Shown here: in pieces, positions 46,380 through 61,716 of the stretch
How positions within the stretch are numbered: the stretch's first letter is position 1
Layout: every line of letters starts with the position of its first letter
Source: an uncultured Bacteroidota bacterium
Lineage (GTDB): Bacteria; Bacteroidota; Bacteroidia; Flavobacteriales; Flavobacteriaceae
Length of the DNA: 64,000 nucleotides
Reading direction: 5' to 3'
Assembly: GCA_913062555.1 (NCBI GenBank)
Contig: CAJXVU010000004.1
Coordinates: forward strand, 83,422 to 147,421
The notes under the pieces: generated by a model
The model's database searches: none
Seen by the model: the letters and a program-made list of their open reading frames with translations, nothing else
Told to the model about the DNA's origin: nothing
Program-made: the position numbers and the translations under genes

Positions 46380-47807
46380 ATGAGTATATCTGCGCAATCG
46401 GTATGGGGCAACTGTCTAAAATTCATAAAGGATAACATCCAACCGCAAGCATATAAAACTTGGTTTGAACCTATTAAAGCAGTAAAACTTACTGAGAATG
46501 CTTTGAGCATTCAGGTACCCAGTAAATTTTTCTACGAATGGCTCGAGGAACATTATGTTAAAATTTTAAAAGTTTCTTTAACAAAGGAGTTGGGTGAATC
46601 TGCCAAACTTGTTTACATTATTAAAATGGAAAACACTTATGGTAACAAACAACCTTTTACCGAAAGAATACCTAGTTCTAATCGAGTGTCTGTTAAATCA
46701 CAAACTGTTGAAATTCCTTTAAAAAATAAAAGTCCAGAGCTTAAGAATCCGTTTGTAATTCCTGGAATTAGAAATGTTAAAATTGAGTCTCAACTAAATC
46801 CTAACTATAGTTTCGAGAATTTTTTAGAAGGTGACTCTAACAGGTTGGCCCGTAATGCAGGATTAGCTGTAGCTAATAAGCCAGGGGGAACATCTTTTAA
46901 TCCGTTATTGATTTTTGGAGGCGTTGGCTTAGGAAAAACACATCTAGCACATGCTATTGGTGTTGACATAAAAGACAAATACCCAGAGAAAACAGTATTA
47001 TATATTTCGGCAGAAAAATTTACACAACAATACATCGATTCTGTTAAGAAAAATAATAGAAATGATTTTATTCATTTTTATCAAATTATTGATGTTTTAA
47101 TTATTGATGATGTTCAATTTTTATCCGGAAAATCTGGTACGCAAGATGTATTTTTCCATATTTTCAATCATTTACATCAAAATGGGAAACAGGTTATCTT
47201 AACGAGTGATAAAGCTCCTGTTGACATGCAAGATATTGAACAACGATTATTATCTCGTTTTAAATGGGGATTATCTGCAGAATTACAAACACCTGATTTT
47301 GAAACTAGAGTTTCCATTCTTAAAAACAAATTGTATCGTGACGGCGTAGAAATGCCAGAAGATATTATTGAATACGTAGCCAAACATATTAAAACCAATG
47401 TACGTGAATTAGAAGGTGCCATTATATCCCTAATTGCACAATCTTCATTCAATAAAAAGGAAATCACAATTAATCTTGCCAAAGATATTGTTGAGAAGTT
47501 CGTAAAAAACACAAAACGAGAAGTTTCTATTGATTATATTCAAAAGGTCGTTTCCGATTATTTCCAAATGGATGTAGACACCTTACAATCTAAGACTAGA
47601 AAACGTCATATAGTACAAGCGCGTCAATTGGCTATGTTTTTTGCTAAAAAGTTCACCAAAGCATCACTCGCAAGTATTGGTTCACAAATTGGCAAACGAG
47701 ATCATGCTACAGTACTTCATGCCTGTAAAACGGTAGACAATTTATCATCTACAGACAAGCAGTTTAGAAAATATGTTGAAGATCTTTCTAAAAAACTTTC
47801 TCTATAA
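46380..47807 (+). CDS. dnaA: Chromosomal replication initiator protein DnaA
   Basis: FIFGGVGLGKTHLAHAIG-type Walker A (IFGGVGLGKTHLAHAIG), LIIDDVQF, C-terminal KRDHATVLHACKTV. Confidence 0.98.
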   Translation: MSISAQSVWGNCLKFIKDNIQPQAYKTWFEPIKAVKLTENALSIQVPSKFFYEWLEEHYVKILKVSLTKELGESAKLVYIIKMENTYGNKQPFTERIPSSNRVSVKSQTVEIPLKNKSPELKNPFVIPGIRNVKIESQLNPNYSFENFLEGDSNRLARNAGLAVANKPGGTSFNPLLIFGGVGLGKTHLAHAIGVDIKDKYPEKTVLYISAEKFTQQYIDSVKKNNRNDFIHFYQIIDVLIIDDVQFLSGKSGTQDVFFHIFNHLHQNGKQVILTSDKAPVDMQDIEQRLLSRFKWGLSAELQTPDFETRVSILKNKLYRDGVEMPEDIIEYVAKHIKTNVRELEGAIISLIAQSSFNKKEITINLAKDIVEKFVKNTKREVSIDYIQKVVSDYFQMDVDTLQSKTRKRHIVQARQLAMFFAKKFTKASLASIGSQIGKRDHATVLHACKTVDNLSSTDKQFRKYVEDLSKKLSL

Positions 47808-57976: not shown

Positions 57977-58179
57977 ATCATCTATTTATTTAGAGCATCC
58001 ACATACAAATTGATGTCCTTATTATCAATTTTTAATACTCATAGGAATGATTTGTGTTAAGGATGGTAGCGACATCCTTTAACGATAGTTAAAGATATAG
58101 TGTATAGCCCGACTTTTACTGATCATTGCTCATGGCAAATGGATTAGTAAAAGGGACACCAAAAAAAACCTAATAAGCC

Positions 58180-58209: not shown

Positions 58210-58280
58210 CAGCCAATTTCGGGTTAACCTCTGGCGAGAATCGCGAACGTTATTTCGAATTAACAATTAAAAAGATTAAA
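58210..58280 (+). promoter_or_regulatory. Candidate L19 mRNA leader
   Basis: Direct repeat ATTTCGGGTTAAC / ATTTCGAATTAAC plus GGTTAACC and GCGA-GAA-TCGC foldable elements between promoter and start codon. Confidence 0.45.
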
Positions 58281-58631
58281 ATGGAATCTTTAGTAAAGTT
58301 TGTACAAGACGAATTTGTAACAAGAAAAGACTTTCCGGAATTTGGAGCTGGAGACACAATTACTGTGTATTACGAAATTAAAGAGGGTAACAAAACACGA
58401 ACTCAGTTTTTTAGAGGTGTTGTTTTACAAAGAAGAGGCACAGGTTCTTCTGAAACGTTTACCATCAGAAAAATGTCAGGATCAATTGGAGTTGAGCGTA
58501 TCTTCCCAGTAAATTTACCTGCATTACAAAAAGTTGAGGTTAATAAAAGAGGTAAAGTTCGTAGAGCTCGTATCTTTTATTTTAGAGGCCTTACTGGTAA
58601 AAAAGCTAGAATTAAAGAAAAAAGATATTAG
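58281..58631 (+). CDS. rplS: 50S ribosomal protein L19
   Basis: FGAGDTITVYYEIKEGNKTRTQFFRGVVLQRRGTGSSETFTIRKMSG. Confidence 0.97.
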   Translation: MESLVKFVQDEFVTRKDFPEFGAGDTITVYYEIKEGNKTRTQFFRGVVLQRRGTGSSETFTIRKMSGSIGVERIFPVNLPALQKVEVNKRGKVRRARIFYFRGLTGKKARIKEKRY

Positions 58632-58655: not shown

Positions 58656-58687
58656 TAAAAAGCCTTGGAAATTTTCCAGGGCTTTTT
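58656..58687 (+). terminator. Intrinsic terminator after rplS
   Basis: AAAAGCCTTGGAAA/TTTTCCAGGGCTTTTT inverted repeat. Confidence 0.85.
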
Positions 58688-58779
58688 CGTTATCAACAAT
58701 TGTTAATAAGCCCGGTTCACAAATGGTTGATATCTAATTGGTTGAAATATTTGGATTTTTAAAATCTTATATTAAATTA

Positions 58780-59305
58780 GCATCAGGGTTAAGGAAAAAA
58801 GATCATGAAATACTGGTTTTAGATTGCTAAGGCAATTACCCTTAATTCTAATAAAGTAACGTTCTTTATATAATTGTTTTTCGAGATTTCAAGGTCCCAT
58901 GTGTATGCATGGTTAAATTGAGAGATCATGATATTTTAAGAAGTACTGAATGTTTAGGCAGGCAGCAACTGGTGAAATTGAAAGTTCTAGAATTAGCAGG
59001 ATCGAAAGTGAAACCTAGTGAAAGGAGCAATGCTTTATAAGTTGTAACTCATGCAAATGAAGGACAATAGATAAAGGATCAAGAAAAGTAATTAACTTGA
59101 AACATTTTAGTAATTGGTCAATACATTTTGATTATTATGTTAGAAAATGTTTCAATTGAAATAGTGAAACTTGAACGGAAAAGGGATTTAGAATGCAAAT
59201 TTTAATTTCTGAGGTTGACAGCAATGTCGAATAACGTCACGCAAAACTATTTCAAAGAAAGCCATGTCAGAGTAGCTCGTCTACAGTGATATGGCTTTTG
59301 TTATT
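58780..59305 (+). ncRNA. Candidate structured non-coding RNA locus (identity unknown)
   Basis: ~525 nt without a credible ORF; hairpins ATTGC-TAAG-GCAAT nested in TTAAGG/CCTTAA, CCATG/CATGG, TTGAAACATTTT/AAAATGTTTCAA, and a 3' terminator. Confidence 0.4.
59258..59305 (+). terminator. Strong intrinsic terminator at the 3' end of the ORF-free locus
   Basis: AAAGCCATGTCA-GA-GTAG-CTCGT-CTAC-AG-TGATATGGCTTTTGTTATTTT. Confidence 0.8.
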
Positions 59306-59403
59306 TTATAAATCGTTGTTCTGTTTTTTACAGATTTATCAAAAAACAATCCCTTTATTACTATTTTATTAAATCGCTTAGTTTAGGCATACTTCGCTAT
59401 TGA

Positions 59404-61716
<2,313 letters not shown>

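Follow-up and report, generated by a model that had tools for sequence, protein, structure and literature searches.

Among bacterial RNAs, a length above 500 nt combined with a conserved multi-domain structure is rare. The known large ones are tmRNA, RNase P RNA, rRNA, OLE, GOLLD and ROOL, which are either important or under active study. Here we analysed a window of 64,000 nucleotides from the chromosome of an uncultured member of the Flavobacteriaceae, in which the stretch 58780-59305 is located between rplS and the isocitrate dehydrogenase gene (icd). A preliminary description, made from the sequence alone, had proposed a plus-strand structured RNA at this position. The best explanation overall is very probably an uncatalogued non-coding RNA (ncRNA) of ~520 nt that is independently transcribed, although transcript data are not available.

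Like OLE, ROOL and GOLLD, the ncRNA is long, untranslated and composed of multiple domains with strong covariation (PMC12286853). In contrast, Rfam scans detect no sequence or structure homology to any of the three. Moreover, the ncRNA is encoded on the chromosome, usually at the same locus, while GOLLD and ROOL are linked to phages or prophages (PMC12286853). The Flavobacteria 6S RNA (RF01685) is likewise non-coding and present in the same genomes, and for the ncRNA a link to growth is inferred as well. However, RF01685 covers only ~108 model positions and has a separate copy in the genome, with no match here. A GTTC-type motif downstream of the promoter and a long untranslated transcript are reminiscent of rRNA leaders with boxA, the NusB/NusE site (PMC4807359), but unlike in rRNA operons no rRNA follows the ncRNA, which has an intrinsic terminator of its own. 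The L19-Flavobacteria leader (RF03130) is also a structured RNA of the rplS locus; it is 29 nt in length, located upstream of rplS and unrelated. Finally, the Rfp sRNAs of Flavobacterium psychrophilum (median length 176 bp) are independently transcribed RNAs of the same family (PMC9723704), a property inferred from sequence in the case of the ncRNA. No description of the ncRNA was found in the open-access literature, subscription papers and supplements being outside the search. We rate the RNA family as categorically new, while its genre, that of large bacterial RNAs with a structure but without an assigned function, is already known.

Organization of the locus

The features of the locus are given below.

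46380-47807: dnaA, 11 kb upstream of the ncRNA
58281-58631: rplS (Pfam Ribosomal_L19)
58660-58687, plus strand: intrinsic terminator of rplS, AAGCCttggaaattttccaGGGCTTTTT, identified in the sequence; part of the neighbour, outside the ncRNA
58690-58709, no strand: palindromic control site TTATCAACAATTGTTAATAA, conserved upstream of the ncRNA and, as TAATTAACAnnTGTTGATAA, upstream of gyrB
58714-58733, no strand: two more half-sites of the same type (GTTnATAA/GTTGATAT)
58750-58780, plus strand: putative promoter of Bacteroidota sigma-A type, TTTG-N19-TAAATTAG (TAnnTTAG), with conserved spacing
58786-59306, plus strand: predicted ncRNA, ~520 nt, start inferred from the promoter and end from the terminator
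58788-58850, plus strand: variable 5' hairpin domain, consensus helices 1 and 2
58851-58869, plus strand: short hairpin ATAAAG/CTTTAT flanking the boxA-like motif
58860-58868, plus strand: boxA-like antitermination motif CGTTCTTTA, in 41/47 homologues at about the same offset
58871-59095, plus strand: central multibranch domain, helices 4-15, closed by 58871-58880/59085-59095
59097-59155, plus strand: hairpin domain GAAACAT/ATGTTTC, helices 16-18, with inner stems
59158-59253, plus strand: domain closed by GAAATAGT/ACTATTTC (59158-59165/59246-59253) with two inner helices; helices 19-23
59257-59306, plus strand: terminator GAAAGCCATGTCA/TGATATGGCTTTT with inner stem, then a T-rich tail; helices 24 and 25
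59432-59439, plus strand: -7 box of the icd promoter, TATATTCG, separate from the ncRNA promoter and recognized by sequence conservation
from ~59503: coding region of icd, monomeric NADP-dependent isocitrate dehydrogenase (Pfam IDH)

The unit is slightly larger than first described: the conserved control site starts at 58690, the promoter occupies 58750-58780 and the RNA extends from ~58786 to 59306. The separate rplS terminator of the preliminary description is indeed present as a hairpin at 58660-58687. Because dnaA adjoins, 11 kb upstream, the ncRNA is found at ~10-16 kb in several complete (rotated) genomes. The L19-Flavobacteria leader mentioned above was detected at window position 58225-58252 upstream of rplS, as well as in 9/10 homologous loci scanned. 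A sub-threshold match to the Flavo-1 RNA (37.3 bits, gathering threshold 42) is located between trmD and rplS (58052-58118).

Secondary structure and strand

The structure alignment consists of 47 homologues which are 49-82% identical to the window copy. In the resulting consensus of 133 bp, 90.7% of the cells pair, compared to 40-44% when the partners are slid by 1-3 columns. Cells changed on both sides amount to 770 versus 143-187 in the slid controls (47 sequences), so that covarying base pairs, one of the checks set out beforehand, are found on a massive scale. The observed pairing values were reached by none of 500 shuffles of this alignment. As the consensus was derived from the same alignment, the paired fraction is somewhat inflated, but not to the observed degree. 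Within the consensus pairs 581 G-U cells face 104 A-C cells. Since G-U lies far above A-C, the ncRNA is placed on the plus strand, and covariation together with this bias supports the RNA proposed in the preliminary description. The region 58788-59306 was calculated to fold with -125.7 kcal/mol (z = -3.7), a value that none of 100 shuffles could match. That the stretch represents a structured ncRNA with several domains held by compensatory changes is strongly supported by these sequence comparisons. We hardly doubt the prediction of an RNA gene at 58786-59306, even without transcript data.

Several elements noticed before coincide with conserved helices. The CCATG/CATGG hairpin corresponds to helix 6, the 12-bp inverted repeat (TTGAAACATTTT at 59097, AAAATGTTTCAA at 59144) to helix 16 and the terminal stem (59257-59299) to helices 24 and 25, for which 99.8% and 83% of the cells are paired in the 47-sequence alignment. 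The nested TTAAGG/CCTTAA and ATTGC/GCAAT hairpins (58788-58850) exist as well and fall within the variable 5' domain. Both reported copies of GATCATGA were located; the one at 58924 overlaps a conserved helix strand, and no role was found in the homologue comparison for the other (58801). AGTGAAA likewise recurs as stated, at 59007, 59017 and 59163, the copy at 59007 overlapping a conserved hairpin with GAAA tetraloop.

The arms of the central multibranch domain carry conserved or recurrent GNRA loops, and the apical GTCAATACATTTTGA of the hairpin domain 59097-59155 is near-invariant. GNRA loops cap four hairpins in total (43/47, 35/47, 24/47 and 18/47 sequences). We infer that the exchanges between GAAA, GCAA and GTAA loops are of the kind typical of tertiary contacts. 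A kissing interaction between the loops of helices 6 and 18 was considered by eye, whereby no covariation was seen.

Promoter, boxA-like motif and palindrome

Among the 27 homologues that fit the strict pattern, 25 have a spacing of 19 between TTTG and TAnnTTAG. The putative promoter resembles the flavobacterial sigma-A box TAnnTTTG that was mapped in F. psychrophilum (PMC9723704). A sigma-70 scan of the locus is unsuited to Bacteroidota promoters. The criterion of an own promoter combined with an own terminator is met on grounds of sequence conservation only.

Approximately 75 nt downstream of the promoter, CGTTCTTTA fulfils the criterion of a GYTCTTTA-like, i.e. boxA-like, sequence. It is also found in the divergent loci of Maribacter, Flagellimonas, Polaribacter and Aquimarina. 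In the rRNA leaders of the relatives the main boxA-like position reads GTTCATTAAC/GTTCATAAAC, and GTTCTTTA itself was observed in a single genome only, within its upstream rRNA leader. Within the ncRNA the motif also forms the 3' strand of a short hairpin predicted there. CGTTCTTTA resembles boxA, the NusB/NusE site, as a motif match only. E. coli reporters show that boxA suppresses Rho-dependent termination on long untranslated RNA (PMC4807359).

The ncRNA promoter is preceded by the palindrome TTATnAACAnnTGTTnATAA, and 3-5 half-sites are present in all 49 homologues. A search of 12 genomes with the related pattern TWATNAACANNTGTTNATWA resulted in 15 perfect sites, of which 10 lie before gyrB, 3 before the ncRNA and 2 elsewhere, compared to none for the reversed pattern as control in the same genomes. 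Slightly imperfect versions exist at many ncRNA loci. In the genome of the window, sites with one mismatch lie before gyrB and rpoD (locus L201, G000:C16:2105). Upstream of gyrB, TAATTAACAnnTGTTGATAA is near-invariant in many Flavobacteriaceae and accompanied by repeated TTTAAG-type motifs (loci L202, L216, L221, L293-L301 and L306). The palindrome upstream of gyrB is possibly an undescribed operator or a DnaA-like site.

Distribution among Flavobacteriaceae

A scan with the rplS protein yielded 80 named relatives. In an alignment of the DNA downstream of rplS, the conserved block starts right after the rplS terminator and ends right after the second terminator at 59300. With a query of 641 bases, several other genera were matched at 68-70% identity over the full length and further genera in part, which satisfies conservation in relatives as another check set out beforehand. 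Homologues are found in Algibacter, Flaviramulus, Seonamhaeicola, Winogradskyella, Olleya, Lacinutrix, Psychroserpens, Formosa and Mangrovimonas, among others. Versions with greater divergence are present in Maribacter, Flagellimonas, Polaribacter, Aquimarina, Kordia, Sinomicrobium, Galbibacter and Leptobacterium.

The wider distribution was searched using a covariance model of the 3' half of the ncRNA (219 positions, E up to 0.001). It matches 162/251 genomes and 155/237 genera of the Flavobacteriaceae, mostly with one copy. The 162 genomes are a lower bound, as one genome with palindrome site and divergent interval (G012) was missed nonetheless. Weak matches to the 3' model alone, e.g. in Tenacibaculum and Salegentibacter, draw in part on the terminator hairpin and are of lower certainty. 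Matches outside the Flavobacteriaceae (order and phylum samples) were few and weak with at most 36 bits and were rejected. No copy of the ncRNA was detected in the Flavobacterium or Mesonia genomes accessed via named loci, nor in several MAGs; the Flavobacterium genomes checked have none between rplS and icd and no match elsewhere in the genome. This absence shows that some lineages can dispense with the ncRNA. In most of the Flavobacteriaceae genera sampled, the ncRNA gene has a single locus.

Alternative explanations

In most genomes the ncRNA immediately precedes icd in the same orientation and has a terminator at its end, as would a long cis-acting leader or attenuator of icd that starts at 58786 and either stops at 59300 or reads through into icd. 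However, icd has its own promoter at 59432-59439, the -7 box of which is kept in most homologous intervals. In many genomes, including Winogradskyella, Olleya, Lacinutrix and Psychroserpens, a gene for a pentapeptide-repeat protein separates the ncRNA from icd, and elsewhere icd is gone or a gene on the opposite strand is next while the ncRNA remains intact. Flaviramulus, Mangrovimonas and others keep the ncRNA beside rplS, with icd no longer adjacent. A leader should always lie directly upstream of the regulated gene, which is not the case, and we regard this reading as very unlikely. Conversely, in Hyunsoonleella the palindrome, the promoter and the ncRNA accompany icd, with an aminotransferase gene upstream instead of rplS. 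The ncRNA survives the loss of either neighbour and is therefore a gene of its own, neither the icd leader nor the 3' UTR of rplS, the latter being excluded by the synteny breaks. A chromosomal origin or DnaA-controlled site, in which DNA sites and no RNA gene are conserved, would agree with the clustered TTATnAACA half-sites, with dnaA 11 kb upstream and with a GC skew that becomes positive in the window at about 52-56 kb. Yet no switch in GC skew occurs at the locus in three single-contig relatives, so that this criterion for an oriC is not met at the coarse sampling used, the half-site repeats lie outside the transcribed part and covariation with G-U bias demands an RNA; an origin is scarcely credible.

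A degraded gene or element had been put forward as the main alternative to an RNA. Integrase genes indeed adjoin partial copies at some loci, and the hairpins could then be incidental. Nevertheless, the family-wide conservation with compensatory changes and the indels among the homologues, only 123/861 of which are multiples of three, rule it out. The longest ORFs of the homologues average 55 aa, mostly on the minus strand, which is near the shuffled expectation (44 aa), and no conserved ORF was found across them. In agreement with the earlier statement that a credible ORF is missing, none within the stretch of the window exceeds 43 aa. The predicted ncRNA stretch is non-coding. Moreover blastn gave no match to a plasmid or phage, and matches in a virus collection were rejected as short conserved words rather than the ncRNA. 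We therefore see practically no room for a decayed protein gene or mobile-element remnant. A derived housekeeping RNA (RNase P, tmRNA, 6S, SRP) or a known large RNA is conceivable with respect to size and complexity, which fall in the range of these RNAs, but can hardly be upheld. None of 4227 Rfam 15 families reaches its gathering threshold at the ncRNA in the window and ten homologous loci (the L19 leader apart), and relaxed thresholds gave no match for the window either. Sub-threshold matches look like chance matches to terminators and were discarded. RNase P RNA (RF00010), tmRNA (RF00023) and 6S RNA (RF01685) have their copies elsewhere in the same genome (contigs C54, C47 and C52 of G000), and SRP RNA had no model match at the locus in the Rfam scans of the window. 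That the preliminary description recognized no signatures of RNase P RNA, tmRNA or SRP RNA is in line with these searches.

Some arrangements around the ncRNA were observed in addition. The pentapeptide-repeat protein is Qnr/MfpA-like, well below the Qnr cut-offs, and its gene often follows the ncRNA (L040:4092-4661, L066:4713-5282 and others). Such a neighbour deserves attention given the link between the ncRNA and gyrB by the palindrome. In Flaviramulus (L287, G669:C91:1943-2116; L012) an intact ncRNA is located with rplS and a 3' remnant lies beside icd and an integrase fragment, as if the ncRNA gene had been the insertion point of an island. In Mangrovimonas (L288, G673:C6:63487-63653) a weak partial match to the 3' half is found beside a tyrosine-recombinase integrase gene.

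Possible function

The analysis is in favour of a stand-alone RNA with a structural or regulatory role. The palindrome common to the ncRNA and gyrB points to a link to growth, topology or replication, with no partner or target shown. RNA polymerase would start at ~58786 under the control of a regulator or DnaA-like protein bound to the palindrome. The boxA-like element near the 5' end may then, as it does in rRNA operons, protect the long untranslated transcript from being terminated prematurely. The RNA is predicted to fold into a compact, GNRA-rich structure that would act in trans and probably serve as a scaffold or the core of an RNP in connection with growth or replication, and not as a cis leader. 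This mechanism, comprising a palindrome-bound regulator, a boxA-like element and a trans-acting structural RNA, is tentative and could well be wrong as worded. Our best guess for the function is a growth-linked, trans-acting structural RNA, which is unproven.

It is a rather doubtful extension that the Flavobacteriaceae possess an RNA machine, i.e. a compact RNA or RNP with tertiary structure under the rare operator of gyrB, which would couple a large RNA to the control of DNA topology or replication. To our knowledge such a coupling has no precedent for an RNA of this size. The ncRNA is present in many culturable marine species and hence open to deletion, probing and pull-down, and the operator it has in common with gyrB provides a concrete first hypothesis for what it may do.
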